Source of the DNA: Brevibacterium sp. UMB1308A | Lineage (GTDB): Bacteria > Actinomycetota > Actinomycetes > Actinomycetales > Brevibacteriaceae | Reading direction: 5' to 3' | Length of the DNA: 50,145 nucleotides | NCBI RefSeq assembly: GCF_030230605.1 | Contig: NZ_JASPDO010000021.1 | Span: 1-50,145 of the forward strand | Shown here: one piece after another, positions 49 to 49,106 of the stretch | Position numbering within the stretch: position 1 is the stretch's first letter | Layout of the letters: every line of letters starts with the position of its first letter | Notes under the pieces: model-generated | What the model was told of the DNA's origin: nothing | What the model saw: the letters and a program-made list of their open reading frames with translations, nothing else | Database searches by the model: none | Position numbers and translations under genes: made by a program

Positions 49-80
49 CGCCGTTGGGCTTAGTTCCACGCCGAGGTGGT

Positions 81-1514
81 TCAGTCCGCCTCGGGATAAA
101 TTGTGTGAGCGGGTGCGACGTTGGTCTTCTTAGCCCACGGGTAGTAGATCGCCGTGGTGACAATGATGCCAATGATCCAGGAGACATCCGCGCCACCGAG
201 CACCTCCACCAGGGGACCCGTGTAGATCGTCTGATCCATAAACGGAATCTGCACCGCAACACCCACTACGTACGCAACCAAGGCGCCGACGTTCCAATCC
301 CCGTAACGACCTCGGCGGTCATACAACGCAGGAATATCAAAGCGGTCCTTGGACACAAAGTAGTAGTCCACCAGGTTCACCACGCTCCACGGCGTGAACA
401 CCATGAGTAGCGCCAGAACAAAGTTCTTGAAGTTGGCCAAGAAGTCAGCGGACGCGAGCAAGGCCACCACAATGGTCAGCGCAACAATCGTGACGACGAA
501 GATCGCGCGGGCAACCTTGGTGACACTCACTCGGTTACGGAACGACGTGACAATCGTCAGCACGCACATGAACGCGCCGTACGCGTTGAGGGTGTTCACC
601 GTGAGCTTGCCCAACAGGATCACAATAAAAATGAGCAAAGCCAGCACTCCACCACCGGCCAGGTCACCAATAAAGCCAACCTGGTTGTCCAGAAATGCAT
701 CGCCGCCCTGTGACATCGCCGTTGCCGCGATCAGGACACCCAGGGTCATGGACCACTGCGAACCAATGACCGAACCGCCGAACGTGAACCAGAAGGTGGC
801 TCGGCGCGGGGTGCTTTCAGGCAGGTAGCGCGAATAGTCCGCCACATACGGGCCGTAGGTGAGCTGCCATCCCGCCGACAGCGCCACGACACTCAGGAAC
901 ACTGGCGCGCTGAACTCGCTGTTAGCGAGGACGGCAGGAACGTCGACAGTGATCACCACGATTGCAGTGAGGTACAGGAAGCCAAGCAAACCAGTGACAG
1001 ATGAAATACGCCCCAGCACGTGAATGTACTTGTACCCCAGAAGGGCAATAATTGCCGTCAGAATACCGAAGATGACGATACCCACCCAGCTGAACTCTTT
1101 AGCGGTGATCCCCAAGATTCCGTTGACGGCTTGTCCTGACAGCACCGCACCCGTAGACGCGAAGCCGATGTACATGAGCACAACCAGCACCAGCGGGAAG
1201 ATCGCTCCGATCACACCGAACTGTGCGCGCGAGGAAATCATCTGCGGCAAACCGAGCGTGGGGCCCTGCGCCGAGTGCAACGCCATGATGGTTCCACCCA
1301 AGATGTTCCCAACGAGCAGGGCGATGATGGCCCATAGAGCGTCGGACTTGAACACGGCAATTGCGAGCGCGCCATCGACGATCGCGGTGATCTGCGTGTT
1401 CGAACCAAACCACAGGGTGAACTGTGAAAACGCGGTTCCGTGCCGCTCATTTGGAGGGACCCAGTCAATGGTGCGGTTTTCAACGAGACCGCTCGTGGAC
1501 TTTGAGTCTGCCAT
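81..1514 (-). CDS. NCS1-family nucleobase (cytosine/purine-type) permease
   Basis: Inner-membrane proton- or sodium-coupled importer of the nucleobase:cation symporter-1 family, about 477 residues with roughly twelve hydrophobic segments. An N-terminal ERHGTAFSQFTLWFGSN stretch and the helix containing LHSAQGPTLGLPQMI are family hallmarks. The substrate (cytosine, purine, hydantoin or allantoin) cannot be told from sequence alone. An upstream in-frame GTG at 1520 is possible, but the ATG at 1514 has AGGAG five bases upstream and is preferred. No catabolic partner such as cytosine deaminase lies next to it in the window. It is transcribed towards palindrome A copy 1. Confidence 0.85.
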   Translation of the reverse strand: MADSKSTSGLVENRTIDWVPPNERHGTAFSQFTLWFGSNTQITAIVDGALAIAVFKSDALWAIIALLVGNILGGTIMALHSAQGPTLGLPQMISSRAQFGVIGAIFPLVLVVLMYIGFASTGAVLSGQAVNGILGITAKEFSWVGIVIFGILTAIIALLGYKYIHVLGRISSVTGLLGFLYLTAIVVITVDVPAVLANSEFSAPVFLSVVALSAGWQLTYGPYVADYSRYLPESTPRRATFWFTFGGSVIGSQWSMTLGVLIAATAMSQGGDAFLDNQVGFIGDLAGGGVLALLIFIVILLGKLTVNTLNAYGAFMCVLTIVTSFRNRVSVTKVARAIFVVTIVALTIVVALLASADFLANFKNFVLALLMVFTPWSVVNLVDYYFVSKDRFDIPALYDRRGRYGDWNVGALVAYVVGVAVQIPFMDQTIYTGPLVEVLGGADVSWIIGIIVTTAIYYPWAKKTNVAPAHTIYPEAD

Positions 1515-1691
1515 GAGCACTCCTCACTGTGTTGGGTTGGTATTTGGGTTGCAGCCCGAACTGTTGTTGAGACTGGATTTGGTCCTGTATTGAGCTGTTA
1601 CTGCACGCGCATTTACGCGGTAGGAACGGTCAATGCTAGCACGTGACCCGGCTCACAAACCGCGATTTCTAGGGGCTCCGGAGAGTAACTT

Positions 1692-1928
1692 TTGTCCAGC
1701 ACAAGAAACTATCCACGGTGGCGGACAGAAGTTATTGGGGTGGTTAGGAGTGAGCGGTTTTGCATGTTAGAGCGGGCCCCCGAGGTGGGAACCAGCGCAC
1801 GTGAGCTTACTCCCCTGCCCGAGGTGGGAGAAAGTTGCGGGAGGGCCAAAACCCTACTGCAACGCTTCCGCACCGGCGGACTCGAAGCACTCCAACCACG
1901 CTCCACATCACTCATGAAGCTAAAATAG
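1692..1928 (+). pseudogene. Possible transposase N-terminal relic
   Basis: A 78-codon open frame ends with a stretch reading GRAKTLLQRFRTGGLEALQP. This resembles the helix-turn-helix tail of IS481-type transposases, where a recognition helix is followed by a WxxRYRxxGxxGLxDRS-like segment. Nothing further of a transposase (no DDE core) follows, and the upstream part contains two CCGAGGTGG words and looks non-coding. The resemblance is short and could be chance. Confidence 0.22.
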
Positions 1929-2247: not shown

Positions 2248-2338
2248 AGCAAACGAAAGACAGCTCACGCGTGGTGGGTAACCCGCGGTAACCGCATTAA
2301 CACGCAGGGCATCCCCCACCTCGGCCCCCTAGAACACT

Positions 2339-2972: not shown

Positions 2973-3860
2973 GTGGGCGTACTAGACCGATTCGAAAAAG
3001 GTATCGAACGCGTCGTCAACCAAACCTTCGCAAAAGCTTTCCGCTCCCAGGTTGAACCCGTTGAGCTCGCCGGCGCGCTGAAGAAGGAAGCTGACACGCA
3101 CGCCGCTGTGGTGTCTCGCGGACGCACCCTCACCTCGAACAACTACGTAATTGAGCTTGCCGCCAGCGACTTCGAACGCCTCGACTCCTTGAGCGAAGAA
3201 CTCACCGCTGACCTGCGCCAAGTGGTTGGCGAGCACGCGATTGAACAGGGTTACAGCTTCGTGGGCCCGGTGACCGTCACGCTCGAACCGGCAGAAGACC
3301 TGGACACCGGCATCTACCGCGTCCGCGCCTCTACCCGCCGCCCTGACGGCACCTTGGCTGCGCAACCTTCCGGCCGAGGTGGTTACGACCCACCCAGCCG
3401 CTCCAACCCGATCGTGCCAGAGGCTTATGAAAGCGCGCAGAACGCCCACCGCACCGGCGCCAACCCGGTGGTGGCCTCCGCTGCCTCAGCGCAAGCCGCA
3501 CCCGCCTCGGGAGTCCCAGCCAACCCTGCCCGAGGTGGCGGCAACCCCGTACGGGGCCGCACCGCCCCGCGTTTCGGGGTCAAAGTCAACGGACAGTTCA
3601 CTCCGCTGAGGCAGGGAACTACTGTGTTCGGGCGCAGTTCGCAGTCAGCTGACTTCGTGTTGGACGACCCAGGGATTTCTCGCCGTCACTTCGAAATCAC
3701 CATCGACGGTACGCATGCGACTGCCACTGACCTCGGCTCCACCAACGGCACCCTGCACAATGGCCACCGCATCACCTCCATCACGCTCACTGATGGCGTG
3801 ACTCTCACCGCGGGCGATACTTCGGTAACGTTCTGTTCCATGGAGATGGGACGTCGATGA
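2973..3860 (+). CDS. fhaA: FHA-domain protein FhaA
   Basis: Cytoplasmic phosphothreonine-binding adaptor of the actinobacterial cell-wall signalling operon, 295 residues. Residues 1-125 are the FhaA N-terminal domain (opening GVLDRFEKGIERVVNQTFAK). Residues 126-200 are a Pro/Ala/Gly-rich linker, and residues 203-293 an FHA fold with GRSSQSADFVLDDPGISRRHF and LGSTNGT, the phosphopeptide-binding loops. In mycobacteria FhaA binds kinase-phosphorylated MviN and regulates peptidoglycan synthesis. The GTG start is preceded by GGGGGAG. The linker contains two CCGAGGTGG words, which dictate its RGG residues. The stop overlaps the fhaB start (ATGA). Confidence 0.95.
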   Translation: MGVLDRFEKGIERVVNQTFAKAFRSQVEPVELAGALKKEADTHAAVVSRGRTLTSNNYVIELAASDFERLDSLSEELTADLRQVVGEHAIEQGYSFVGPVTVTLEPAEDLDTGIYRVRASTRRPDGTLAAQPSGRGGYDPPSRSNPIVPEAYESAQNAHRTGANPVVASAASAQAAPASGVPANPARGGGNPVRGRTAPRFGVKVNGQFTPLRQGTTVFGRSSQSADFVLDDPGISRRHFEITIDGTHATATDLGSTNGTLHNGHRITSITLTDGVTLTAGDTSVTFCSMEMGRR

Positions 3861-4387
3861 CCGAATTTACCGTTGTCGCGCTACGGTTCGGCCTGTTTAT
3901 TGCCATGTGGGTGTTCGTGTTCATGGTGGCAGGCGTGCTGAGTCGCGACCTGTTCGGCCCGCGCAAAGTCAAGGCGGGCAAGCGCCGCAAGCGAGCCAAA
4001 GCGCAACAGTCTGCCCCGGCGACCCAGCAGCCCGTAGGCGCAGGCGCCGCAGCAGGCACCGCCGCCCCAGACGCCCACCACCAAGCCTCTGATTTCGCAA
4101 GCGAACTGGTGGTCACCTCGGGCCCTCTTTCTGGAACGGTTATTGCATTAGGCGATGCGCCCATTACGCTGGGACGTAGCCGCGAGAACACTCTGGTCCT
4201 CGATGACGACTTCGCTAGTGGTTTTCATGCCAAGATCGGCCCGGACGGCCGAGGCGGTTGGTACGTGGAGGACCTGGGTTCAACGAACGGCACGTTCATG
4301 GGGCAACACCAACTTGAGGCGCCCACCTCGCTGGGAGTACACATGCCGGTGACTATCGGTAACACCACGGTGGAGTTACGTTCGTGA
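3857..4387 (+). CDS. fhaB: FHA-domain membrane protein FhaB (FipA)
   Basis: A 176-residue protein. One N-terminal transmembrane helix (residues about 5-27) is followed by a basic stretch and an Ala/Gln-rich linker. A C-terminal FHA domain (about 80-176) carries GRSRENTLVLDDDFASGFHA and LGSTNGTFM. In mycobacteria FipA/FhaB interacts with FtsZ-FtsQ under PknA phosphorylation, so a role in coupling division to kinase signalling is expected. Four-base overlaps with fhaA and pstP indicate translational coupling. One CCACCTCGG-type word sits at the linker/FHA boundary. Confidence 0.93.
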   Translation: MTEFTVVALRFGLFIAMWVFVFMVAGVLSRDLFGPRKVKAGKRRKRAKAQQSAPATQQPVGAGAAAGTAAPDAHHQASDFASELVVTSGPLSGTVIALGDAPITLGRSRENTLVLDDDFASGFHAKIGPDGRGGWYVEDLGSTNGTFMGQHQLEAPTSLGVHMPVTIGNTTVELRS

Positions 4388-6063
4388 CCGATTTTGTATT
4401 CAACAGCGCTGTACGGTCCAATGTGGGTCTGGTCAGGAAGAACAACCAAGACTCCGGTTATGCGGGCCGTAACTTTCTTCTCATCGCTGATGGCATGGGT
4501 GGTCACGCGGGTGGCGATGTCGCGTCTGCAATTGCGGTCGCCCGCCTAGCTTCACTGGACCACGGGGACCACACTGGCGAAAGCCTGGACTCCCTGCGCT
4601 CCACCATTTTGGACGCGAACGACCGTATTGCGCGCGCAGTTGAGGACGAACCTCAGCTGGGTGGCATGGGAACGACCGTCACTGCACTGTTGCGGTGTAA
4701 CGACCGTTTGGCCCTGGCACACATCGGTGACTCGCGGGCGTACCTGTTGCGGGACGATTCGTTTTCGCAGATGACCACCGACCACACGTTTGTGCAGATG
4801 CTGGTCGACGAGGGTCGCATCACCCCTGAAGAAGCCGAATACCACCCGCAGCGCTCTGTTGTGATGCGCGTTTTGGGTGACGTGGGAGCCTCTCCTGAGC
4901 TTGACATGTCCGTGCGTGAGGCGCGCATTGGCGACCGATGGATGCTGTGTTCCGACGGTCTCACCGGGTTCGCTGACCTCGACGTCATCGAAGAGGCTTT
5001 GCGTTCGATCGACGACCCTGGCGAGTGCGCGGAAAAACTGGTCAACATGGCGCTCGAAGGCGGGGGTGCTGACAACATCACGGTGGTGATCGGCGATGTT
5101 GTTGACGCGACCGACCTCACGGATGAAGATCTGGATGCCCCCGGCCAGTTTGGCGGTTCGGTTGAGATCAACCCGCAGTTCGCGCAGCTGGGCACGGTCG
5201 ACAACGACACGCAGCCCGTCGACGGCACCCAGCCGGTTGAGGATTTAGAAACTGAGGCGTTGCCTCAGGTGGATGAGGACACCGCCGAGGTGGTTTCCAA
5301 CTCCCGTGACGACGAGACCCCCGCGGACGGCGCCTCCGATGCCGGGGCGGGCACCGCGACTAACTCTGAGAAGGCAAGTGACGGCGCTGATGAGGAAACC
5401 GCCGAGGCGGTTTCGGCTACCGCTGTTGGGGCGGCTGCGAGTTCGGCCGCAGCCGTTGCTGGTGACAGTAAGCGGGGCGGTCGGGGAAAAGCGCGAGCGA
5501 CCAAGAGTCGCAAGCGTAAGGATCTTGGCGCTGACACTGACGATTTTGATGAGTTCTCTGACGAGGAACCTCGCCGTCGTTGGATTCCCTGGGCGATCGC
5601 TGGGGCGGTCATTGTTTTGCTTATCGTGGCCGGGTTTGCCGGGAAAGCGTTTATTCAGTCGCAGTATTACGTGACGGAAGAAAACGGCAAGGTCGCTGTT
5701 TATCAGGGGGTTTCGCAGAACCTGGGGCCGTTTGAACTGTCGAACCTGAACGAGACCACGGACATCGAAGTCCAGTACCTTCCTGCGTACACGCAGAGCA
5801 GATTGAAAGAAACGATCCCTGCGTCCAGTCACGACGAAGCCCAGAAGATCGTTGAGAATCTGCGTTCTGCAGCAGATAAGACTCGCCAGCAAAGCGTTAG
5901 CGGTGGCGCAACGGACGGCAACAGCACCGACCCTGCACCTTCTGCGCCAGGCGAGCCTGGAAACAGCCCTGAAAACAACCCTGAGCAGCAGCCGGGCCAA
6001 CCTGACCAGCCGAACCAACCTCAGCAACCCGCGCAACAAGCCGAACAGGGTGAAAACCCATGA
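4384..6063 (+). CDS. pstP: Membrane PP2C-type Ser/Thr protein phosphatase PstP
   Basis: Dephosphorylates the PknA/PknB kinases and their substrates. Residues 1-240 form the PPM phosphatase with the metal ligands of family motifs DGMGGHAGG, GMGTTVTAL, HIGDSRAYLLRD, CSDGLTGF and GGADNITVV. Residues 240-400 are a long acidic, Ala/Glu/Asp-rich linker, then a basic patch, a transmembrane helix (about 404-426) and an external Gln/Pro-rich tail ending near residue 559. At 559 residues it is somewhat longer than mycobacterial PstP (about 514), the extra length being linker. The start is GTG overlapping the fhaB stop, and the stop overlaps the rodA ATG. Confidence 0.95.
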   Translation: MTDFVFNSAVRSNVGLVRKNNQDSGYAGRNFLLIADGMGGHAGGDVASAIAVARLASLDHGDHTGESLDSLRSTILDANDRIARAVEDEPQLGGMGTTVTALLRCNDRLALAHIGDSRAYLLRDDSFSQMTTDHTFVQMLVDEGRITPEEAEYHPQRSVVMRVLGDVGASPELDMSVREARIGDRWMLCSDGLTGFADLDVIEEALRSIDDPGECAEKLVNMALEGGGADNITVVIGDVVDATDLTDEDLDAPGQFGGSVEINPQFAQLGTVDNDTQPVDGTQPVEDLETEALPQVDEDTAEVVSNSRDDETPADGASDAGAGTATNSEKASDGADEETAEAVSATAVGAAASSAAAVAGDSKRGGRGKARATKSRKRKDLGADTDDFDEFSDEEPRRRWIPWAIAGAVIVLLIVAGFAGKAFIQSQYYVTEENGKVAVYQGVSQNLGPFELSNLNETTDIEVQYLPAYTQSRLKETIPASSHDEAQKIVENLRSAADKTRQQSVSGGATDGNSTDPAPSAPGEPGNSPENNPEQQPGQPDQPNQPQQPAQQAEQGENP

Positions 6064-7652: not shown

Positions 7653-9118
7653 ATAAGCCGCTCAAGCACGTCGCTGTCGTGGGCTTTGTGATGTTCGCGT
7701 TCCTGTTTGGTTCCACCAGCTACGTTCAATACTTCTCAGCAGAGTCACTGAATGAGAACCCCCTGAATAACCGCACAGTTCTTGAGGAACTGTCACGCAA
7801 CCGTGGCCCCATCCTGGTGGATGGTGAGCCCGTGGCTCTTTCAACCCCCGTTGACGATCAGTACAAGTTCCAACGGACTTACGGATCCGACAACCTCCCA
7901 GCCAAAATGTACAGCCCCGTAACAGGTTTCTTTTCGATCACCTCGGGCGCCACCGGACTTGAACGCACGGAAGGCAGCCTGCTGGCTGGAACTGACGACA
8001 AACTCTTCTACGACCGGGTATCCGGCTGGCTCACCGGGCAGGAACCCACGGGTGCCGCCGTCGAACTGACCCTCAACCCCAAGGCTCAGCGCGCCGCGTA
8101 CCAGGCGCTGGAAGGCCAGAAGGGTGCGGCCGTGGCTATGAACCCTAAGACTGGTGAGGTTCTGGCAATGGTGTCCACGCCTGGGTTCAACCCCAACGAC
8201 ATGGCGACGCACAACCGCAAGGACGCCGAGGCGGCGTACAAGTCGGCGCTGAAAGACCCGGACAAACCGCTGTATAACCGCGCAATCGGGGGTAACTTGT
8301 ACCCGCCAGGAAGCGTGTTCAAGCTGGTGACAGCCGCAGCCGCGATCGAATCAGGCGATTACAACGAAGACACTGAAATCGACGCGCCAAACGCGCTGAA
8401 ACTACCCCAGACCACTCACACCATCAAGAACGCGGGTGGTTCCACGTGTGCCGACGGGAAGAAGGCCACCCTCAAGCACGCGATCATGAAATCGTGCAAC
8501 ACTCCCATCGCCAAACTGGGCATGGACTTAGGTGCTGACGCGATGAACAAACAGGCCGAAAAGTTTGGTTTTGGCGACAACTTCACCATGCCGTTGCGAG
8601 TCAGCGCATCGACCTTCCCCGAATCGCCAAACGAACCAGAACTCGCACAGTCAGCAATTGGACAGTTCGAAGTGAAAACCACACCCCTACAGGTGTGCAT
8701 GGTGACCGCGGCGATCGCTAACGGTGGCACAGAAATGCGCCCCAACCTGATCTCCGAAGTTCGCAATGCGCGCACCCTAGAAACCATTGAGAAGCCACGT
8801 CCGCGCGAATACTCGCGTCCGATCTCCAAAGACACGGCACGTCAACTCTCCGACATGATGGTCGACGTTGTGGATAAAGGAACCGGTACGGCCGCGCAGA
8901 TATCGGGCGTGAAGGTAGCCGGGAAAACTGGAACGGCCCAGCACGCACAAGGAGCGGCACCGCACGCGTGGTTCACTGGTTTCGCTCCAGCGGATGATCC
9001 TCAAGTGGCTGTCGCAGTCGTCGTGGAATCCGGTGGAAATGCGGGGAACCAAGCCTCCGGCGGTCGAGTAGCGGGACCAATTGCGAAGAAAATCATGGAA
9101 GCGGTGGTGAACGAATGA
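7649..9118 (+). CDS. pbpA: Class B penicillin-binding protein PbpA (transpeptidase)
   Basis: Cross-links peptidoglycan outside the membrane as partner of RodA. A signal-anchor helix lies at residues 7-25, a dimerisation-like domain to about 150, then the transpeptidase. Active-site motifs are visible: SVFK with Ser222 and Lys225, SCN at 282-284 and KTG at 426-428. At 489 residues it is the short actinobacterial PbpA type without PASTA domains. PbpA is a known PknB substrate in mycobacteria, consistent with the operon. ATGA overlaps occur at both ends. Confidence 0.95.
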   Translation: MNKPLKHVAVVGFVMFAFLFGSTSYVQYFSAESLNENPLNNRTVLEELSRNRGPILVDGEPVALSTPVDDQYKFQRTYGSDNLPAKMYSPVTGFFSITSGATGLERTEGSLLAGTDDKLFYDRVSGWLTGQEPTGAAVELTLNPKAQRAAYQALEGQKGAAVAMNPKTGEVLAMVSTPGFNPNDMATHNRKDAEAAYKSALKDPDKPLYNRAIGGNLYPPGSVFKLVTAAAAIESGDYNEDTEIDAPNALKLPQTTHTIKNAGGSTCADGKKATLKHAIMKSCNTPIAKLGMDLGADAMNKQAEKFGFGDNFTMPLRVSASTFPESPNEPELAQSAIGQFEVKTTPLQVCMVTAAIANGGTEMRPNLISEVRNARTLETIEKPRPREYSRPISKDTARQLSDMMVDVVDKGTGTAAQISGVKVAGKTGTAQHAQGAAPHAWFTGFAPADDPQVAVAVVVESGGNAGNQASGGRVAGPIAKKIMEAVVNE

Positions 9119-34556: not shown

Positions 34557-34578
34557 CACTATTGCTCAGATGTTCCCG

Positions 34579-39070: not shown

Positions 39071-39141
39071 CCATCGCTCCTTTCATCGAGCGCTCGCGCA
39101 TAAACGTGATTGGGACAACATTAAGTTCAGCACGTCAGAAA

Positions 39142-39160: not shown

Positions 39161-39182
39161 TCTGAACAAAGGAGTGCATTGG

Positions 39183-40538
39183 ATGCAAGAACAAGACGAC
39201 ATCACAGCTATCGAAATTGCCAATTCACTCGTGGAAGCATCTGCTAGTGGCATTTCGGCAACTGTCGTGAAACTTATCCGCAGTGGAAAAATCACCACGG
39301 GCACGCGCCTCCCGAAAGTACGTGACTTGGCGCGTGAGTTGCACGTAAGTAGTGCGACCGTATCGGCAGCCTGGAAAAATCTGCGCTCGCGGGGTTACAT
39401 CGATGGAACCGGGAGACAGGGGTCCTGGGTATCCTCCGCGGCTCCCCGGATCGGCCCACGCAGGTTTGACTTCTTATCGAACTATCTTCCAGACGGCGCG
39501 GTTGACATGACTTATGCAAGCCCCGACCCACACCTTTTGCCTGATTTACGTCAAGCGTTTTCATACGCTTTAAATATTGATCCTGAACTCCACAGTTATA
39601 CGCGACAAGCCATTACCCCAGCTCTTCAAAGAGCTATCGCCCCACACTGGCCTTTCAAAGCACAGCAATGGCTTGCGGTGAGTGGCGGTTTCGAAGGACT
39701 TCACCTGCTTTTACAAGGCATTTCGTCGCCTGGTGAAAAGTATGCTGTGGCGGACCCAGCGCCACCACGAATTCTCGACATTCTAGACCGCTGTGGGCTA
39801 CGACCAGTACCTGTGGAGACAGACAAACACGGACCTTCACCTTCTTCTCTTGAACAAGCGCTAAATGGTGGAGTGGCTGGATTCATCTACGAACCTCGGT
39901 GCAGTTCTCTTCTAGGCGTTTCGATTACGAACAATCGTCGCGAGGAACTCGTTCCTATACTCAGAAAGCATGAAGCCATAGTCATTGAGGACGACGGGGC
40001 CGGTGACATTTCCGAAAAACCGCTACTGAGCTTAGGGACCTTCCTCCCTCAGCAAACGGTCCTTATCCGAAGCTTTTCAAAGGCTTACGGACCTGATCTG
40101 CGGATTGGCGTCATGGGTAGTGCCAACCCCCGCCCCATTGAGTTAGCGCGCGAGACATTGAAATTTGGAGCTGGCTGGGTGAGTCGAATCCTACAGAATA
40201 GTCTGGCGCATCTGATCGCCGATAAAGAGTCAATACGTACGGTTTCTGTAGCGCGTGAAACGTATGGACGGCGCAGGACACTACTGGCTCGCGCACTCAC
40301 TGAAAGAGGAGTCTCTCCTCTATCTCACGACGGTTTAGTGATGTCTGTTCCCGTCCTGAGTGACGCACGATCACAGCTTGTACTGGCAACCCATGGATAT
40401 GCAGTAACAACTTCAGAACTCACTCGAATTAGTCATAAGCAACCGTTCATTCGCCTAACCGTGGGAGTTCTAAGCGAAGAACAGCTATTAAAAGCAACCG
40501 ACGCGATTGCCCTAGCCGCGAGTGCCCCCGCAGTGTAG
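39183..40538 (+). CDS. MocR-family regulator (GntR HTH plus aminotransferase domain)
   Basis: About 451 residues. An N-terminal winged helix of the GntR kind (GTRLPKVRDLARELHVSSATVSAAWKNL) is joined to a fold-type I aminotransferase domain. The PLP lysine is in LIRSFSKAYGPDLRIG, and VIEDDGAGD holds the Asp that contacts the cofactor. MocR proteins sense PLP and an amino compound and control an adjacent operon. ATG at 39183 follows AAAGGAG by eight bases. It is likely to control the divergent 34.6-39.1 kb operon through the 39142 palindrome. Confidence 0.9.
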   Translation: MQEQDDITAIEIANSLVEASASGISATVVKLIRSGKITTGTRLPKVRDLARELHVSSATVSAAWKNLRSRGYIDGTGRQGSWVSSAAPRIGPRRFDFLSNYLPDGAVDMTYASPDPHLLPDLRQAFSYALNIDPELHSYTRQAITPALQRAIAPHWPFKAQQWLAVSGGFEGLHLLLQGISSPGEKYAVADPAPPRILDILDRCGLRPVPVETDKHGPSPSSLEQALNGGVAGFIYEPRCSSLLGVSITNNRREELVPILRKHEAIVIEDDGAGDISEKPLLSLGTFLPQQTVLIRSFSKAYGPDLRIGVMGSANPRPIELARETLKFGAGWVSRILQNSLAHLIADKESIRTVSVARETYGRRRTLLARALTERGVSPLSHDGLVMSVPVLSDARSQLVLATHGYAVTTSELTRISHKQPFIRLTVGVLSEEQLLKATDAIALAASAPAV

Positions 40539-40720
40539 GTCTTCGTTCAAGTCGCCTTCGCAGATTAAGCAATGAGACAAGCCTCTTCCGCACATCTCAA
40601 GGCGTAAAGTGGAAGTACCGCCCACATAGCGGGTCGCATAATCTCGGAGTTCTATAGCCCGGTTGTACAAAAGCGTTCATACAGACTGGTTCGGCCCGCC
40701 CCCATCCAAAAGGAGTTGTT

Positions 40721-41656
40721 GTGAAGAAAATCGCTGTTGTAGGTTTCGGAGTCATCGGTCAATCGTGGGCACGTCTATTCGCCAAGAACGGGCTTGAAGT
40801 CACGGTCTCTGACGTTCGTGAGGACCTCGACCAGGTCATCACCAACATCAACGCAGACCTCCCCGACGACGCGCAACTCACAACCGCGCCCCTCGAGGAA
40901 GCCGTTAAAGACGCCGACCTCGTACAAGAATCCGGCCCCGAACGCGAACAGATCAAAAAGGACCTGTACGCAACCATGACGCAGGCAGCTAAAGACACCA
41001 CGATCTTCGCTTCTTCGTCCTCGGGCATCCCTTCATCCGTTGTGGCACAGGACCTACCTGCCGACGTGGCCGCCCGCATCCTCATCGCCCACCCCTTCAA
41101 CCCGCCAGAGCTCCTACCCCTGGTCGAAATCGTGCCCAACGACCACACCTCGGAAGACGTACTCAACACCGTCACCGACTTCTACACACAACTGGGCAAA
41201 GTGCCGGTCCGGCTCAACCGCGAAATCCCCGGATTCGTCATCAACCGCCTGCAGTGGGCAATCATGAAAGAAGCGTCCTACCTGGTCAAACAGGGAATCG
41301 TGAACCCAGCCCAACTGGACACCGCAGTGCGCAACTCAGTGGGTGTGCGCTGGGCGTCCGTAGGCCCATTCGAGGCATTCCACCAGGGCTCGGATCACGG
41401 ATTCCGCGGCCTGGTAGAACACGTCTTGTCCACCTTTGACTCCTTCGACACCGAAGCCACCACGTTTGGCGACGACTCCTACACCCCCGTCGTCGAAGCC
41501 GTCGAAGAGTCCTACGGCACCACGGCAACACAAGAGTCAAAAACGGCCCGTGACCGTCGCCTCATCGCGGTAAGTGACGCCCTGACCAAGGCCGACGGCA
41601 ACAACCGCCTCGCCGCAGTCACGGAAACCCAGAACCAAGCAGACGACGAAAACTAG
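40721..41656 (+). CDS. 3-hydroxyacyl-CoA dehydrogenase-family protein
   Basis: A 311-residue NAD-dependent dehydrogenase. The Rossmann start VVGFGVIGQSWARLFAKNG, SSSSGIPSS, and the AHPFNPPELLPLVEIV signature are of the 3-hydroxybutyryl-CoA dehydrogenase/L-carnitine dehydrogenase/lambda-crystallin branch. Residues 190-240 hold the C-terminal helical domain with RLQWAIMKEA. Substrate could be a hydroxyacyl-CoA, carnitine or gulonate. GTG start with AAAAGGAG. It ends 17 bases before the convergent putA stop, leaving no room for a terminator. Confidence 0.85.
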   Translation: MKKIAVVGFGVIGQSWARLFAKNGLEVTVSDVREDLDQVITNINADLPDDAQLTTAPLEEAVKDADLVQESGPEREQIKKDLYATMTQAAKDTTIFASSSSGIPSSVVAQDLPADVAARILIAHPFNPPELLPLVEIVPNDHTSEDVLNTVTDFYTQLGKVPVRLNREIPGFVINRLQWAIMKEASYLVKQGIVNPAQLDTAVRNSVGVRWASVGPFEAFHQGSDHGFRGLVEHVLSTFDSFDTEATTFGDDSYTPVVEAVEESYGTTATQESKTARDRRLIAVSDALTKADGNNRLAAVTETQNQADDEN

Positions 41657-41673: not shown

Positions 41674-44600
41674 CTACCTCAGCCGCTTGGCTAGCTCCTG
41701 GAAGTCGCGGTCCGCGTTTCCAAACCGGTGCATGGTCATCGACACGGCCTGCTCGCGCACGTAGTACCGCTGCTCAACCCGGCCGCTCACGGTCACCGGC
41801 TCGGCGATCAGCGTGACGTTGATGTGACGCGCCGCCGCCTCAACCAGTTCCTGCGGCACGTCACCGATCATCCGCACGCGCACACCCATCGGGTCACTCA
41901 CGGCATCCAGGCGCGCGGCGAACGTGGCAGCGTCACTGACGTCCACCTCGGGCGCCATCACACCGTCATCCACGCCCGCGCGAAGTTCCTCAATGACACC
42001 CTTGACCTGCGGGAACACGTCCTCATCCACTGACCATTCAATGGGCGCACCCACTCGCGCAGCCGCGAGCGCACACCGGCGCATCTGCGCCTCCAAGCCG
42101 GCCGTCACCTCAGCGGTTTCCCCTGCGGCCCCTGCAGCCCCGGCAGCTCCAGGAGTCCCAGCCCCCGCACCCACGCGCAGGACCACTGGGCAGGGCCGGT
42201 ACCGCAGAATGTTCGCCTCGGACTCAAAACCGTTGGGGTCGTGTGCCACGCCAAACTGGGTGTCCCACGCCTCCCGGTCGCTTTCCAGCGCCCGATCCAC
42301 CCACGCCGAGGTCGCCGCCGCCCCGTCTGTCCACGCGCCTAGCATCATGAGGTAGTTCGGGCCACCAGCCTTGGAACCAAGCCCCACCGTGGATTTCTTC
42401 CACCCGCCAAAGGGTTGCCGTTCCACAATGGCGCCCGTGATTGACCGGTTGACGTACAGGTTGCCCGCGTCCACACGGTCCAGCCACGTTTCGACCTCGG
42501 CGGTATCCAGGGAGTGAATCCCTGCCGTGAGCCCGTAGTCCACGGCGTTCTGGAGCTCGATCGCGTGGTCCAGCGAATCGGCACGCATGAGCCCCAGCAC
42601 CGGACCAAAGCATTCGGTGAGGTGGAAGAACGACCCCGGCTTCACACCGGTCTTCACCCCCGGCGACCACAAGCGCCCGGAGTCATCCAGCTGCCGTGGC
42701 TCAACCAACCACTCTTCACCCTCCTCCAGCTGGGTGAGTGCGCGCAGGAGTTTTTCCGACGCATCTACCGTCAGCGGCCCCATCTCCGCACGCAGGTTCG
42801 TGGGCACGTCCACCACCAGCGACTGCGCGGCGTCAACCAGTTGCTTCCGGTAGCGTTCGGACTCATATACCGAGCCCACCATGATCCCCAACGAGGACGC
42901 TGAACACTTCTGCCCGGCGTGCCCAAACGCGGAATATACCAGGTCGGCCACGGCCAGGTCACGGTCCGCAGACGGGGTAATGACGATCGCGTTCTTCCCA
43001 CTGGTTTCCGCGTTGACCTGCAAGCCGGAGCGGAACGACTTAAACAGTTCCGCCGTTTCCGAGGCACCCGTGAGGATCACCCGGTCGACCGCCTTGTGCC
43101 CAATCAGCGCCCGCCCCAGGTCGCCTTCCAGCGACGGCGCCAGCTGAAGCGCGGACTTGGGCACCCCGGCCTCCCACAGACATTCGGCAATGAGGGCGCC
43201 GCACCGCGCGACCGCCCCGGCCGGTTTGAGGATCGCCGAGGCGCCCACCGCCAACGCTGCCACCGCACCTCCCGTGGGGATCGCCACCGGGAAGTTCCAC
43301 GGCGGGGTAACGATGACCACGCGGTCCGGTTCAAAGTGGACGCCGTCGCGTTCCTGGATGCGTTCGAGTTCGCACGCCTGCCGCGCGTAGTAGCGGATGA
43401 AGTCGATTGCTTCGGAGACCTCGGGGTCCGACTGCGCCAAGGTCTTGCCCGCCTCATGCGCCATGACGCTTAAGAACTGCCCACGTTTGGCGGCGAAGAT
43501 GTCTGCCGCTCGGTCCAAGACTTCCAGCCGTTCCGCAGCACTCAGGGAACGCCATTCGTGCTGGTCACGGGCGGTTTCAACGCACCTGTTGACGTCCTCA
43601 ACCGAGATAAAGGGTTCGGCTTGTGGCTGGTCTTCCAGCCAGCCTGGCGCGCTCGACTTTTCCATGAACTCCCGGACCCACGCCTGGTTGGCGGGCAGGG
43701 AAATGTCGGTATCGGGTTCGTTACGGAAGCTGGCGGGGCTCCCAGCCGCGCCTCTCCCAGCCTTGGCTTCCTTCCCCCGGTCCTGCTTCCGGTTGGGAGT
43801 GGGCGGCTCGCCTGCAGCCAACAACTCGCCGAGGTCGTTCACAGACGCGCGGAACCTCTCCTCTTCCTTCTGGAAGGCTGGGCTGCCGTTGGCGATCTCG
43901 AAAATTGAGGCCATGAAGTTCTGTGGCGAAGTGTTTTCTTCAAGCCTGCGCACCAGGTAGCTCACGGCGGCGTCGAACTGATCGGGATGGACTGCCGGCA
44001 CGTACAGCAGCAGGTCACCCACGTCAGCCGAGATCACCTCGGCCTGCTTGGTAGCCATCCCCTGCAACATCTCAAACTCAACGCGGTCCGTGAGCCCGCA
44101 AGCCACGCTGAGCTCATGGGCGAACGCGATGTCGAACAGGTTGTGGCCGGCGACCCCTAAGCGCAGTCCGGCAGTGTTTTCCGGGGTGAGCGTCCAGTGG
44201 AGGATGCGTTTGTAGTTGGCGTCGGTGGCCTGCTTGGTGGGGTTGACGGTGAGTGGCCAGTTGGCGAGTTCTGCATGAACCCGCTCCATGGCGAGGTTCG
44301 CGCCCTTCACCAGTCGCACTTTGATTTCCGCGCCACCAGCCTCAACACGCGAGCGCGCAAACTCGCTCAAGCGCTGGATCGCGGGCAGGGCGTCCGGGAG
44401 ATACGCCTGAATGACGATCCCGGCTGACAACTGGTGGAACTCTTCTTCCGACAGCAGGCGCATGAACACGTCAATCGTGAGGTTGAGGTCGTTGTACTCC
44501 TCCATATCGAGGTTGATGAACTTAGCGCCCCGGGCCGCTTCTTCCTCACTCCCCGCCTGCTCCATTGCCTGCCGGTACAGCGGGCGCAACCGGTCCACAA

Positions 44601-45375
44601 CGTAGGTGACCGTTTCGTCATAGGACCACATGTTGATGCGGCTGGCCACGGACGACACCTTAATGGACACGTAGTCAACATCGTCGCGGGCCAGCAGATC
44701 GTGGGTCTGTTCCAAGTGGTTGTCGGCCTCTTCTTCACCCAAGACAGCTTCACCCAGCAGGTTGATGTTGAGCCTGTGGCCGCCACGTTTCAGGGTGGCC
44801 ACGGTTTTGCCGAACTGCTCCGGGCGAGCATCCACCACCATGTGCCCCACCATGTTGCGTAGCCGGGCGCGGGCTGCGGGGATGACAAGGTCGGGCATCG
44901 CGGTGGCGAGCGCAGCACCTGCCTGGATCTGCGCGCGATCCGCAAGTGACATGCTCTCTGGGGTCAGGCGGGCCACTTCCGTGAGTGCGCGCGCGGCGGC
45001 TTTGGTGTCTTCGATTCGGATGACTCGGTCCACAAAACCGCTGGTGAATGGCAGCCCGTTGGGGTCAGACAGCACGGCGGCCAGGCGTTGTTCTTGTTTG
45101 AGCGCTTGAGTGCTTGCGTTCTGAGGTGAAGACCACCGAGGTGAGCCAGAGTTTGCCGCGTTCGTGGACTTGGGTGCGAGCCAGCCGGACTTGGCTGGTT
45201 TCGCTGTGGACAGTCGCAACCAGCGTCGCACCCGGTCAACGGCTTTGTTCGCGAGTGCATCCAGGTCTGTGTTTGTGGGTTCGCTCAATTCACTGTTGGC
45301 GTGATCAATTGGGACCTGTTGTGGGTCGCGCGGCATGTTTGGAGCGTGGTTCACAGTGCATCCTAACTGGGTCAC
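41674..45375 (-). CDS. putA: Bifunctional proline dehydrogenase/glutamate-semialdehyde dehydrogenase PutA
   Basis: A 1233-residue membrane-associated enzyme that oxidises proline to glutamate. The N-terminal half is the FAD-binding PRODH barrel (VKGANLAMERVHAE, INLDMEEYNDL, RLGVAGHNLFDIAFA). The middle-to-C-terminal ALDH has INAETSGKNA-like VNAETSGKNAIV, catalytic Cys in GHAGQKCSASS, and ECFGPVLGLM. Two low-complexity linkers occur, one between domains (Lys/Gly/Ala-rich) and one near the C-terminus (PGAAGAAGAAGETAE). The start is GTG at 45375, or GTG at 45354 which has AGGA upstream. No N-terminal DNA-binding domain, so not a repressor form. The extra C-terminal ~180 residues fit type C PutA. 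Confidence 0.92.
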   Translation of the reverse strand: MTQLGCTVNHAPNMPRDPQQVPIDHANSELSEPTNTDLDALANKAVDRVRRWLRLSTAKPAKSGWLAPKSTNAANSGSPRWSSPQNASTQALKQEQRLAAVLSDPNGLPFTSGFVDRVIRIEDTKAAARALTEVARLTPESMSLADRAQIQAGAALATAMPDLVIPAARARLRNMVGHMVVDARPEQFGKTVATLKRGGHRLNINLLGEAVLGEEEADNHLEQTHDLLARDDVDYVSIKVSSVASRINMWSYDETVTYVVDRLRPLYRQAMEQAGSEEEAARGAKFINLDMEEYNDLNLTIDVFMRLLSEEEFHQLSAGIVIQAYLPDALPAIQRLSEFARSRVEAGGAEIKVRLVKGANLAMERVHAELANWPLTVNPTKQATDANYKRILHWTLTPENTAGLRLGVAGHNLFDIAFAHELSVACGLTDRVEFEMLQGMATKQAEVISADVGDLLLYVPAVHPDQFDAAVSYLVRRLEENTSPQNFMASIFEIANGSPAFQKEEERFRASVNDLGELLAAGEPPTPNRKQDRGKEAKAGRGAAGSPASFRNEPDTDISLPANQAWVREFMEKSSAPGWLEDQPQAEPFISVEDVNRCVETARDQHEWRSLSAAERLEVLDRAADIFAAKRGQFLSVMAHEAGKTLAQSDPEVSEAIDFIRYYARQACELERIQERDGVHFEPDRVVIVTPPWNFPVAIPTGGAVAALAVGASAILKPAGAVARCGALIAECLWEAGVPKSALQLAPSLEGDLGRALIGHKAVDRVILTGASETAELFKSFRSGLQVNAETSGKNAIVITPSADRDLAVADLVYSAFGHAGQKCSASSLGIMVGSVYESERYRKQLVDAAQSLVVDVPTNLRAEMGPLTVDASEKLLRALTQLEEGEEWLVEPRQLDDSGRLWSPGVKTGVKPGSFFHLTECFGPVLGLMRADSLDHAIELQNAVDYGLTAGIHSLDTAEVETWLDRVDAGNLYVNRSITGAIVERQPFGGWKKSTVGLGSKAGGPNYLMMLGAWTDGAAATSAWVDRALESDREAWDTQFGVAHDPNGFESEANILRYRPCPVVLRVGAGAGTPGAAGAAGAAGETAEVTAGLEAQMRRCALAAARVGAPIEWSVDEDVFPQVKGVIEELRAGVDDGVMAPEVDVSDAATFAARLDAVSDPMGVRVRMIGDVPQELVEAAARHINVTLIAEPVTVSGRVEQRYYVREQAVSMTMHRFGNADRDFQELAKRLR

Positions 45376-45721: not shown

Positions 45722-46483
45722 ATGACAACCCTGTCCAACCGTTCAATCATCATCACTGGCGCTGGTTCCGGAATCGGGCGAGCAATCGCCCAAGAAGCCG
45801 CCGCAGCTGGCGCCCACGTCATCGTTTCAGACCTCAACCAAGACACCGCTAACGAAACTGTCGAACTCATTCAGCAAGCCTCCGGGCAAGCAACCGCCGT
45901 CGCTGGTGACGTCTCCTCGCAGGAGGTCGTCGACCAGCTGGTAGCTGCTGCCACCTCGGCGGGCCCACTGCTGGGACTGGTCAACAACGCCGGAGTCATG
46001 GACGACTTCGCAGGTGCCGCAGAAACCACCGACGCCACGTGGGAACTGTGCATGCGCGTCAACGTGACTGCACCGTTCATGTTGACCCGCGCGGTTCTTC
46101 CACACCTGCTGGAGGCTGGTAAAGGTTCGATCGTGAATATGGGCTCCGAAGCCGGCCTGCGCGGAGGCGCTGCCGGAGCCGCGTACACATCGTCGAAACA
46201 CGCGCTCGTGGGGCTCACCAAGTCCACGGCGTTCCAGTACGCGCGTCAGAACGTGCGCGTCAACGCGATCATGCCCGGCGGTGTGGAAACCAACATCATC
46301 GAAACGGACTACACCAAGCTCAACCAGGCGGGTCTCGCCGTGATGGGGCCACTGCACCAGACGGCAACCCGCATGGCCCAGCCAAGTGAAATTTCGGCCC
46401 TGGCAGTGTTCCTCCTGTCAGACGCGGCTTCTAACGTCAGTGGCGCAATCATTCCATGTGACGCAGGCTGGTCCGCAGGCTAA
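45722..46483 (+). CDS. Short-chain dehydrogenase/reductase
   Basis: About 253 residues, FabG/3-oxoacyl reductase-like oxidoreductase. TGAGSGIGRAIAQEAA cofactor loop, NNAGVMDD, catalytic Ser in VNMGSEAGLRGG, Tyr/Lys in AYTSSKHALVG, and the C-terminal NVSGAIIPCDAGWSAG are all present. The open frame extends upstream across repeat DNA, but the ATG at 45722 with TAGGAGT upstream is the likely start. Substrate unknown; it stands alone. Confidence 0.87.
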   Translation: MTTLSNRSIIITGAGSGIGRAIAQEAAAAGAHVIVSDLNQDTANETVELIQQASGQATAVAGDVSSQEVVDQLVAAATSAGPLLGLVNNAGVMDDFAGAAETTDATWELCMRVNVTAPFMLTRAVLPHLLEAGKGSIVNMGSEAGLRGGAAGAAYTSSKHALVGLTKSTAFQYARQNVRVNAIMPGGVETNIIETDYTKLNQAGLAVMGPLHQTATRMAQPSEISALAVFLLSDAASNVSGAIIPCDAGWSAG

Positions 46484-46648: not shown

Positions 46649-48013
46649 ATGACAGTGGATATGCACGCTGCAATTGAACAGCTCGAAGACGAGCTCGCAA
46701 GCTCGCATCTTGACTCAGCGCACCTCGATGTCATTAATAGTCTTGCTAAACAGATTCCCACCCACGAACTGACGCGCCTGGTCAGCAACCGACCCATCGT
46801 GCAGTCGGCCGTACTGTTCCGGGTGCTTAAAAAAGATGAAGCCCTTGCCGTCTTCGAAAACCTCCCGCCCAGCTACCAGGCTGACTTAATCCAGGCGCTC
46901 CGCGGCCCCGATGTCGCCGAAATCATCGAAGGTCTGGACCCCGACGACCGCGCCGAACTCTTTGGCGAACTCCCCGCAATCGTCGTGAAGTCCATGATGA
47001 AGGGGCTGTCACACGACGAACGCACCAAAACGTCGATCGTGTTGGGCTACCCGCGTGAGGCGATCGGCCGTTACATGTCACCTGAGGTCCTGTCGCTCCA
47101 CGACGACTGGGACGCCCGCCGCGCCTTAGAGGTCGTGCGGGAACGCATTTATGAACCGGAAACCGTGTACCTCCTGCCCGTCCTCGCCCGAGGTCGCACC
47201 CTAGCTGGCGTTGTGTCCTTGCGTACGTTGGTGGGGGCTTCACCTGATACACCTGTCACTGAGCTGATGCGTGAACCGTCGTCCGTTGAGGCCATGACTG
47301 ACCGTGAAGATGCGGCGCGTAGCTTCTTGGATCAGCGGCTTATTGCAATGCCTGTGGTTGACGCTGAGAACCGCCTTTTGGGCATCCTGACCATGGATGA
47401 CGTTCTTGACATTATTGACGAGGAAGACGCCGAGGACGCCGCCCGCGGATCTGGTTCGGAACCTCTGGACCGGTCCTACATGTCCTCGACCATCATGCAG
47501 ATCGTCAAGAGCCGCATTGTGTGGCTGTTGGTGCTAGCTGTCTCAGCCGTCCTGACCGTGCAGGTGCTTGACCTCTATGAGGACCGCCTGGCTCAAGTGG
47601 TGGCCCTGGCACTGTTCATCCCGCTGCTCACGGGTACTGGTGGGAACGCTGGCAACCAGGCAGCAACCACGGTGACGCGCGCGTTGGCCGTTGGCGAGGT
47701 GCGTGTGCGTGACCTGATGATGGTGATGTGGCGCGAGGTCCGCGTGGGTGCCTCTCTGGGACTGGTGCTGGGAAGTCTGGGGTTCCTGATTTCTGGCGCC
47801 ATTTACGGGTTCCAGCTGGGTTCCGTCATTGGGCTCACCCTGCTGTGTATCTGCACGATGGCCGCGTCCGTGGGCGGGCTCATGCCCATCCTGGCGAAAA
47901 AAGTTGGCGCCGACCCGGCCGTTTTCTCCAACCCGTTCATTTCGACATTTTGTGACGCAACAGGCCTCATCATTTACTTCACGATCGCTACTGTAATTTT
48001 GCGCCTGCACTAG
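46649..48013 (+). CDS. mgtE: MgtE-family magnesium transporter
   Basis: A roughly 454-residue Mg2+ channel. N-terminal superhelical domain (about 5-125), two CBS domains (about 130-260; EAIGRYMSPEVLSLHDDWDARRAL and RLLGILTMDDVLDII), then five transmembrane helices with GTGGNAGNQAATTVTRAL, the conserved pore-lining signature. The preferred start is ATG at 46649 after GGGAGGAG; an in-frame GTG at 46634 is inside the ribosome site. Followed after 52 bases by the aldolase gene, possibly co-transcribed. Confidence 0.93.
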   Translation: MTVDMHAAIEQLEDELASSHLDSAHLDVINSLAKQIPTHELTRLVSNRPIVQSAVLFRVLKKDEALAVFENLPPSYQADLIQALRGPDVAEIIEGLDPDDRAELFGELPAIVVKSMMKGLSHDERTKTSIVLGYPREAIGRYMSPEVLSLHDDWDARRALEVVRERIYEPETVYLLPVLARGRTLAGVVSLRTLVGASPDTPVTELMREPSSVEAMTDREDAARSFLDQRLIAMPVVDAENRLLGILTMDDVLDIIDEEDAEDAARGSGSEPLDRSYMSSTIMQIVKSRIVWLLVLAVSAVLTVQVLDLYEDRLAQVVALALFIPLLTGTGGNAGNQAATTVTRALAVGEVRVRDLMMVMWREVRVGASLGLVLGSLGFLISGAIYGFQLGSVIGLTLLCICTMAASVGGLMPILAKKVGADPAVFSNPFISTFCDATGLIIYFTIATVILRLH

Positions 48014-48065
48014 TAACGTCGCGCCCGTACTAACCCGCCAACACTGACCCACCCAGGAGGAAACC

Positions 48066-49106
48066 GTGAAACAACTGCACAACAGCGAACTCGTTCATTT
48101 TGGGTCGGATAACTACGCGGGAGCCCACCCCGAGGTGCTCGAGGCTTTGAGTGTCGCCTCGGGCGGGCACGTGCCTGGGTACGGTGAGGACCCGTACACG
48201 GAGCGTTTGCGTGAGTGGACCCGCGAGACCTTTGGGCCAAATGCCCTCATCTTCCCCGTGTTCAACGGCACGGGCGCCAACGTCGTTTCGCTTGCCGCGC
48301 TCAACCCCAGGTGGGGGCATGTGATCGCGGCACCGTCGGCACACATCAACACCGATGAAACCGCGGCCCCTGAGTCTTCTGCCGGCCTCAAGGTCAAGCC
48401 GGCACCCGCCGTTGACGGCAAGCTCACCCCCGAGGCCGTCACCAGCACCCTGTCCAGCCGCGATTTCGTGCACGAGGCCCAAACCACCTCGGTCAGCGTG
48501 TCCAACTCCACTGAATTGGGCACCGTCTACCAGGTGGAGGAGTTCCGGGCCATCGCCGAGGTGGCCCACACCTCGGGCTTGTCTGTCCACCTTGACGGCG
48601 CACGGCTTGCGTGCGCGGCGGCCGCAACGGGGGCGGGGCTGGAGGAGCTGACTCGCGGCGCGGACGTGATCTCGTTGGGTGCGACCAAGAATGGCGCCTT
48701 GGGTGCAGAAGCGGTTGTGGTGCGCAATCCCGAGGCGGTTTCCGGCATTCAGTATTTGAATAAGTCGTTGTTGCAGTTGCCGTCGAAGGCGCGCTTCATT
48801 TCAGCGCAGTTGCTGGCGCTGTTCGATGGGGACTTGTGGTTGCGCAACGCCAAGCACGCGAACGCGCAGGCAGCGAAGTTGGCCACGGGGCTCTTAGAGG
48901 CTGGTTTTGATGTGCCGGTGAAGACGCAAGCGAACGCGGTGATCGCAAGTGTTGAGCCTGAGGTGGTGGAGCGCGTGCTGGCGCAGGGTGTGATTTTTTA
49001 TGCGTGGCCGTTTGTGGAAAACGGGATTCGCCTCATGACCGCGTGGGACACTCCAGACTCTGCAATTGATGAGCTGATCAGCACTTTTGTTGCTGCTCGG
49101 GGTTAA
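48066..49106 (+). CDS. ltaE: Low-specificity L-threonine aldolase
   Basis: A PLP enzyme of 346 residues that splits threonine to glycine and acetaldehyde. Fold-type I features: SDNYAGAHPEVLEAL start, FNGTGANVVSL, HLDGARLACAA (cofactor Asp) and SLGATKNGALGAEAVV with the Schiff-base lysine in TKNG. GTG start with AGGAGG upstream. Three CCGAGGTGG-type words lie in it. Eight bases separate its stop from the next ORF, so both are probably one transcript. Confidence 0.9.
   Translation: MKQLHNSELVHFGSDNYAGAHPEVLEALSVASGGHVPGYGEDPYTERLREWTRETFGPNALIFPVFNGTGANVVSLAALNPRWGHVIAAPSAHINTDETAAPESSAGLKVKPAPAVDGKLTPEAVTSTLSSRDFVHEAQTTSVSVSNSTELGTVYQVEEFRAIAEVAHTSGLSVHLDGARLACAAAATGAGLEELTRGADVISLGATKNGALGAEAVVVRNPEAVSGIQYLNKSLLQLPSKARFISAQLLALFDGDLWLRNAKHANAQAAKLATGLLEAGFDVPVKTQANAVIASVEPEVVERVLAQGVIFYAWPFVENGIRLMTAWDTPDSAIDELISTFVAARG

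Follow-up and report, generated by a model that had tools for sequence, protein, structure and literature searches.

Neisserial genomes carry thousands of copies of a DNA uptake sequence (DUS), which occurs in clade-specific dialects within the Neisseriaceae (PMC3630211). The core of the DUS is CTG, and that of the uptake signal sequence (USS) of the Pasteurellaceae is GCGG (PMC12616744). A paper from 2025 credits self-DNA tagging to two proteobacterial families only. In the actinobacterium Micrococcus luteus, natural transformation requires both tad clusters and is abolished by deletion of comEC, and tad genes together with comEA/comEC are described as a frequent combination in actinobacteria (PMC4322843). 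Here we report that the 7-base word CCGAGGT, read with its complement ACCTCGG, is over-represented in a 50,145-base stretch of DNA from Brevibacterium sp. UMB1308A (contig NZ_JASPDO010000021.1; "the window" denotes this whole stretch). We argue that the word is probably a DNA uptake sequence, which would be read by the Flp/Tad pilus and ComEA/ComEC of these actinobacteria.

The over-representation is confirmed. The window contains 66 exact matches to CCGAGGT/ACCTCGG, close to the 64 or so estimated in an earlier, sequence-only reading of the same DNA; dinucleotide shuffles gave a mean of 7.09 (s.d. 2.78, maximum 14, n = 100). CCGAGGT/ACCTCGG is the highest-scoring 7-mer of the window against a third-order Markov model (66 vs 8.7 expected), CACCTCGG is the highest-scoring 8-mer (49 vs 3.4), and CCGAGGTGG is present in 23 copies. 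The two orientations occur in similar numbers, as had been claimed (29 forward, 37 reverse). The base 5' of the core is G at 33 and C at 21 of the 66 sites, the base 3' of it is G at 49 and C at 15, and the consensus is (G/C)CCGAGGT(G/C)G. One-base variants of the core are not comparably enriched; the largest excess, about two-fold, is that of CCGAGGC (22 vs 8.3 in the window, 109 vs 54 in the related genome G026). Sites in coding DNA fall into the three sense frames as 1/22/6 and into the antisense frames as 21/4/3, so that all six frames are used, as the sequence-only reading had it, but unevenly, with two of them dominating. Its further claim of a concentration in intergenic DNA is not borne out. 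With genes called by a simple purpose-written gene caller (used for the window and its relatives alike), 57 sites lie within called genes and nine in the 6.0 kb outside them, at similar densities; what differs is the excess over expectation, which is greater outside. The exact CCGAGGT matches are given below, the strand being the orientation of CCGAGGT.

71..77, plus strand, outside called genes
309..315, minus strand, exact match
1780..1786, plus strand, outside called genes
1819..1825, plus strand, outside called genes
2318..2324, minus strand, outside called genes
3374..3380, plus strand, FhaA gene
3530..3536, plus strand, FhaA gene
3730..3736, minus strand, FhaA gene
4115..4121, minus strand, second FHA gene
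5285..5291, plus strand, PP2C phosphatase gene
7940..7946, minus strand, penicillin-binding protein gene
10093..10099, minus strand, kinase gene
11830..11836, minus strand, PASTA kinase gene
12134..12140, plus strand, PASTA kinase gene
13168..13174, minus strand, exact match
13838..13844, minus strand, exact match
14610..14616, plus strand, exact match
15180..15186, plus strand, exact match
15317..15323, minus strand, exact match
16577..16583, plus strand, exact match
17146..17152, plus strand, exact match
17177..17183, minus strand, exact match
17207..17213, minus strand, exact match
17237..17243, minus strand, exact match
17980..17986, minus strand, outside called genes
18008..18014, minus strand, outside called genes
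18939..18945, plus strand, exact match
19514..19520, plus strand, outside called genes
19550..19556, minus strand, outside called genes
20566..20572, minus strand, exact match
20825..20831, plus strand, exact match
22071..22077, plus strand, exact match
23311..23317, minus strand, exact match
23593..23599, minus strand, exact match
25264..25270, minus strand, exact match
25436..25442, plus strand, exact match
26326..26332, minus strand, exact match
26463..26469, minus strand, exact match
27357..27363, minus strand, abuts the next site, inverted
27364..27370, plus strand, abuts the preceding site, inverted
27385..27391, plus strand, exact match
28439..28445, minus strand, outside called genes
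29702..29708, minus strand, exact match
29845..29851, minus strand, exact match
29894..29900, plus strand, exact match
30254..30260, plus strand, exact match
31022..31028, minus strand, exact match
31855..31861, plus strand, exact match
31970..31976, minus strand, exact match
33354..33360, plus strand, FTR1 iron permease gene
33417..33423, plus strand, FTR1 iron permease gene
39893..39899, minus strand, exact match
41147..41153, minus strand, exact match
41945..41951, minus strand, proline/aldehyde dehydrogenase gene
42306..42312, plus strand, proline/aldehyde dehydrogenase gene
42494..42500, minus strand, proline/aldehyde dehydrogenase gene
43418..43424, minus strand, proline/aldehyde dehydrogenase gene
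43829..43835, plus strand, proline/aldehyde dehydrogenase gene
44036..44042, minus strand, proline/aldehyde dehydrogenase gene
45136..45142, plus strand, proline/aldehyde dehydrogenase gene
45953..45959, minus strand, exact match
47188..47194, plus strand, MgtE gene
48130..48136, plus strand, exact match
48486..48492, minus strand, exact match
48556..48562, plus strand, exact match
48570..48576, minus strand, exact match

Genome-wide counts come from relatives of the window genome; G and f numbers denote the genomes and families of the comparison set. The nearest of these genomes is G001 (96% identity over two kinase genes; G026, 84%), and the PP2C phosphatase of the window shares 96% identity with a phosphatase of Brevibacterium mcbrellneri ATCC 49030. 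Of 337 sampled 40-base pieces of that B. mcbrellneri locus, 331 are present in a single stretch of G001, so that G001 is very probably this strain. The 2.6 Mb of G001 hold 1,495 copies of CCGAGGTG and the 2.4 Mb of G026 hold 1,496, whereas the reversed word numbers 111 and 117, respectively; in some Brevibacterium the word occurs about once per thousand bases, counting both strands. In a 400-kb sample of G026, CCGAGGT again ranks first among the 7-mers, with 383 copies against 64 from the third-order Markov model that had been proposed as a check, and the longer enriched words in the ranking include GCCGAGGTGG and GCCGAGGTCGT. All 19 sampled stretches of G026 contain it (8-30 sites per 20 kb; mean 19.1, variance 27.1). 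Like the known uptake sequences, it is a short word present genome-wide in hundreds to thousands of copies, far above expectation.

Codon usage, amino-acid context or base composition might generate such a word by themselves. Two reading frames do dominate, and in many genomes of the phylum CCGAGGTG is two to five times as frequent as its reversed control. However, when synonymous codons were shuffled within each gene (30 shuffles), coding counts of CCGAGGT stood far above the shuffle means (57 vs 15.9 in the window, 119 vs 32.2 in G001, 302 vs 83.9 in 380 kb of G026), as did intergenic counts above a first-order Markov expectation (9 vs 0.7, 16 vs 2.7 and 60 vs 8.4, respectively). A ranking of shuffled G026 genes gave a top 8-mer with z of 5.4, compared with 26.9 for the real genes. 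Moreover, the excess is not shared by all congeners: it is smaller in G013 (coding 86 vs 44.8, intergenic 12 vs 4.8), slight in G003 (47 vs 38.9 and 7 vs 5.8) and missing from G030 (25 vs 29.1 and 6 vs 6.3), and the one-base neighbours of the word again argue against composition. Some context effect is left uncaught by the synonymous shuffle, as can be seen from four genomes of other families in which coding CCGAGGT is 1.25- to 1.54-fold above the shuffle mean (G057, 60 vs 40.1; G041, 60 vs 39.0; G038, 67 vs 45.8; G047, 54 vs 43.2). Despite this residual of about 1.5-fold, codon usage is ruled out by the within-gene shuffles as the full explanation, which the sequence-only reading had named as a possible refutation, and codon use, context or composition alone is extremely improbable. 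In G026, word density is 0.52 per kb in the tenth of genes lowest in codon typicality, against 0.81-1.27 per kb; since density also climbs with gene GC content, we give this trend little weight.

The word varies between clades. When 7- and 8-mers (8- to 11-mers for eight sets) were ranked with no word preset, CACCTCGG came out as the top 8-mer of the window, G001 and G026. The main Brevibacterium clade uses the dialect CGCCGAGGCGG: in 340 kb from G013, G028 and G033 the top word is CGCCGAGG and the 10-mer is CGCCGAGGCG (coding 126 vs 15.1, intergenic 27 vs 1.0). The window's 8-mer is a secondary word of that clade (coding 124 vs 43.3, intergenic 22 vs 6.4; 2,426 copies in G025), and it is because CGCCGAGGCGG is the leading dialect there that CCGAGGT seems only about two-fold enriched in other Brevibacterium by the Markov test alone. 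CGCCGAGGCG occurs in 864 to 2,177 copies, 26- to 59-fold over its reversed word, in 23 of the 37 Brevibacterium genomes. It is intermediate in G018 (532 copies, 31-fold) and G036 (599, 26-fold), has 61 and 76 copies in the two genomes of the window's clade, and in the other ten exceeds its reversed word at most about eightfold. The ranking gave no comparable word (top z of about 10 or less) for G003 with G031, G009, G030, G004, or G018 with G036 (the last pair from 40 kb). On a four-protein tree of 18 Brevibacterium, the word-poor species are scattered: the sister of the window's clade is G014, a separate group unites G003, G030 and G031, and G009 branches elsewhere (support 71). This scatter indicates that the word was gained, lost or changed within one genus.

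Members of two other families of the order have strong words of their own. In G057 the 10-mer CGAGGCATCC has coding and intergenic counts of 37 vs 1.3 and 6 vs 0.2 (100 kb) and totals 1,333 copies, compared with one for the reversed word; copy numbers in family f19 (nine genomes) span 22 to 1,333, and each of the other 140 genomes has at most 42. In G053, of a third family, CGGCATAC is found 43 times vs 2.3 in coding and 12 times vs 0.2 in intergenic DNA (80 kb). In family f17 (nine genomes), five members have 1,192 to 2,535 copies of CGGCATAC (reversed word, 64 to 462), four have 7 to 71, and each of the 140 genomes outside f17 has at most 170. Two further genomes of other families, G039 and G045, have weaker words that hold in 10-mers (z of 10 and 12). 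No comparable word was ranked in G041 and G047 (top z about 10 or less) or in G040 (nothing above z of 5.3), and the z of 10.7 in G044 comes from a CG-rich 8-mer that fades in longer words. The top words of G038 were rejected as a genome-wide dialect, as they sit in local repeat clusters. One of these, a cluster of direct and inverted repeats containing ATTGCATGATCACGA, lies at 17578-18513 of L122, the only sequence in which the repeats were mapped; ATTGCATG also occurs at L124 9999-10288 and L125 16169-16292. The reversed-word control is weak in high-GC genomes (CGCCGAGGCG, 533 vs 35 in G057, though it is no top word there), and so we do not infer a phylum-wide presence of CCGAGGTG. In 20 kb of Rothia koreensis (L015), CGAGGTGGCA is a possible, unconfirmed dialect (CGAGGTGGC, 15 vs 1.8; GAGGTGGCA, 9 vs 0.3); CGAGGTGGC is nowhere clearly prominent in a 149-genome sample of the order whose Rothia membership was not established (highest ratio to the reversed word, about 8).

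Clade-specific dialects are thus a feature that the word shares with the uptake sequences of the Neisseriaceae. There is perhaps an even chance that at least three families of the order (the Brevibacteriaceae, with two related dialects, and two families with other words) carry family-specific uptake tags read by an Flp/Tad pilus, which would represent a third independent origin of self-DNA recognition in transformation and the first outside the Proteobacteria.

Uptake sequences occur in both orientations without replication polarity, and the same is true here. With the origin of G026 placed near 1.21 Mb by dnaA, CCGAGGT is found 228 times on the leading and 228 times on the lagging strand (23 stretches); CGCCGAGG in G013, G028 and G033 divides 225 to 230, and CGGATGCC in G057 45 to 43. 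These counts bear on three other kinds of short word that are over-represented genome-wide. A Chi-like site, which would regulate a double-strand-break repair nuclease-helicase and promote recombination, would fit a word that is dense, conserved in the core genome and scarce in prophage-like DNA; Chi words also differ between clades, and main-clade CCGAGGCG favours the leading strand (149:105). Known Chi words usually have an orientation, however, which neither CCGAGGT in G026 nor CGCCGAGG in three main-clade genomes shows. RecC (PF04257) was found in none of 18 genomes, while an Escherichia coli control matched, making Chi of RecBCD a poor model and a Chi-like role unlikely. A site for chromosome organisation or segregation, such as an FtsK-orienting polar sequence (KOPS), an architecture-imparting sequence (AIMS) or a binding site for SMC or a nucleoid protein, would be in keeping with a word found in every sampled stretch of G026. 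KOPS and AIMS are biased towards the leading strand, and the lack of any such bias in G026, or for CGCCGAGG in three main-clade genomes, leaves this role improbable. The sequence-only reading had argued against KOPS and Chi from equal orientation in the window, and the replichore counts and the missing RecC bear it out. The word might instead be a highly iterated one like HIP1, perhaps linked to DNA methylation: HIP1 has a similar density, and the main-clade CGCCGAGGCG, CGCC-GA-GGCG, is an interrupted palindrome. HIP1 is a perfect palindrome; CCGAGGTG is not, and the words of the window and of the two other families are non-palindromic. A HIP1-like word is likewise improbable. In sum, an uptake tag is more likely than a Chi-like, nucleoid-protein or HIP1-like role.

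The word is conserved beyond what its composition would suggest. Between the window and G001, 49 of 57 word sites are intact, compared with 1,557 of 2,315 sites of matched control words, which have the same letters as CCGAGGT and contain a CpG (Fisher P = 0.0013); in the comparison with G026 it is 38 of 49 against 836 of 1,801 (Fisher P = 1.1e-5). The flanks are less conserved than the word itself: next to aligned sites, identity to G026 is about 0.82, whereas the aligned window as a whole reaches 0.872. This would be in keeping with the enrichment in disordered linkers that the sequence-only reading had proposed. The longest word-free gap of the window, 33,424-39,892, largely overlaps a segment that does not align with the syntenic contig of G001:

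34500..40590, no strand, segment without alignment in the syntenic G001 contig; holds one site and makes up most of the longest word-free gap

At 34.5-40.5 kb there is one word site where 8.5 are expected. The genes of this segment encode an amino-acid-type ABC transporter, a CN-hydrolase and a GntR/aminotransferase regulator. The site-poorest stretch of G026 (8 sites; mean, 19), which has a higher GC content, encodes transporters, a Mutator transposase and a type I restriction domain. Terminase matches were found in 5 of 25 word-rich genomes. Inside the terminase-bearing elements of five main-clade genomes, the limits of which were set by hand from gene calls and matches to phage families, there are 5 copies of CGCCGAGGCG where 22.4 are expected (flanks, 23 vs 20.6); over the whole terminase stretches, for which no limits were chosen, the figures are 28 vs 42.9 (P = 0.01). 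Scarcity in acquired and phage DNA, another property of uptake sequences, is thus seen in small samples and with hand-set element limits. In three Brevibacterium genomes (L173, L174, L175) similar terminases belong to a compact element, which has matches to integrase and primase in L173 and L175 and only weak helicase/primase matches in L174. The element resembles a phage satellite more closely than a full prophage.

A machinery for DNA uptake is encoded. ComEC was found in 58 of 59 relatives and TadE in all 59. In G026, ComEA, with its SLBB and helix-hairpin-helix domains, adjoins ComEC, and Pfam matches reveal a cluster with TadA, TadB, TadC and TadE, a second with TadA and TadB, and a third TadA locus. 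The ComEA of G026 has matches beside ComEC in 17 of 17 further Brevibacterium loci, word-poor species included. The tad loci of G001, G013 and the word-poor G009 look alike, as judged from gene order and size only. A competence pilus and ComEA/ComEC, as expected for the uptake-sequence class, are therefore encoded, though word-poor species have them too. The presence of ComEC or TadE was rejected as a discriminator between word-rich and word-poor genomes, since both kinds carry these genes.

Compared with known systems, the word behaves like the uptake sequences of the Neisseriaceae and Pasteurellaceae in copy number, non-polarity, independence of coding, conservation and dialects. It shares with the DUS, which is read by the minor pilin ComP, its shortness, a non-palindromic sequence, more than 1,000 copies on both strands, dialects, and a genome that encodes a competence pilus and ComEC; with the USS it shares the genome-wide spread and types at the family level. 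It differs from both in the word itself and in being known from sequence alone. Unlike the DUS, it belongs to another phylum, with single-membrane Gram-positive cells and Flp/Tad pilus genes, and CCGAGGTGG/CCACCTCGG lacks CTG. Unlike the USS, it has no conserved flanking motif in the window beyond a preference for G/C, and CCGAGGTGG/CCACCTCGG also lacks GCGG; the main-clade CGCCGAGGCGG does contain GCGG, with no further likeness. Another close system is the Flp/Tad-dependent transformation of M. luteus (PMC4322843), which is actinobacterial and with which Brevibacterium shares comEA-comEC and tad clusters; terms for uptake sequences had no match in that paper. From Chi, KOPS and AIMS the window word differs in lacking strand bias, and from HIP1 in lacking perfect palindromy.

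If the word is indeed an uptake sequence, the Flp/Tad competence pilus and the ComEA/ComEC machine would bind it on DNA, possibly through a minor pilin of the TadE/TadF type. Tagged DNA would be taken up better, which would bias import and recombination towards DNA of the cell's own clade, and repeated import of tagged fragments would have built up the copies and would now maintain them. Congeners that have these genes but are poor in the word would then either take up DNA unselectively or have lost competence.

Several observations weigh against an uptake tag. ComEA, ComEC and tad genes are also present in the word-poor G009, G014, G003, G030 and G031, so the machinery does not predict the word. 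Of nine other families, represented by one genome each, two have a strong word, two a weak one and five none, and the residual coding excess in other families has been described above. Main-clade CCGAGGCG leans to the leading strand, at 54:27 in G028 alone (P = 0.004). Inverted pairs of sites within 60 bases barely exceed direct pairs (18 vs 13 among 362 G026 sites). The window regions at 21.6-26.3 and 30.6-34.5 kb do not align with the G026 stretch, are present in G001 and hold five sites each, a normal density; the word is therefore missing from only some accessory DNA. Any other recognition site of the core genome could likewise be conserved and scarce in inserted DNA. In the literature, a second M. 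luteus paper (PMC12849477), like PMC4322843, has no match for uptake-sequence terms, and no paper on uptake-sequence transformation of Brevibacterium was found among the titles and abstract openings searched. Titles and abstract openings likewise yielded no uptake sequence from Actinobacteria, subscription papers and most preprints being outside the coverage, and among the matches listed for the literal 8-mer all were off topic, judging by title. By this literature, an uptake tag in Brevibacterium would be the first outside the Neisseriaceae and Pasteurellaceae. The suggestion of the sequence-only reading, a genome-wide recognition site or DNA uptake sequence in place of a protein motif, nonetheless gains support from the exclusion of codon usage as a full explanation, the lack of polarity in G026, the competence genes and the clade-specific dialects.

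The window also contains other repeats. A palindromic repeat around GAGCGAAACTxCGCAATATAACGCG lies at 22, 16488, 19280, 19600, 26238 and 45610, with a related copy near 12758; it occurs in both orientations, mostly outside called genes, and its core GCAATATAA is found six times in the window and six times in 380 kb of G026. A second dyad, TACAGTCCA facing TGGACTGTA, is located at 2345, 2359, 19475, 26046, 26060, 26155 and 45700, again mostly outside called genes. There are seven copies of TACAGTCCA in the window compared with one in 380 kb of G026, and the dyad is perhaps a species-level repeat or a regulator site.

A further origin of self-tagging in single-membrane, high-GC Gram-positive bacteria would, if true, mean that such tagging evolves repeatedly and with different pili. 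The word would then be a readable marker of present or past transformability in actinobacteria, and placing the right word on donor DNA might help to transform members of the phylum that are hard to engineer. Whatever its function, a non-polar, codon-independent word with dialects inside one genus suggests that an undescribed protein is dedicated to reading it.

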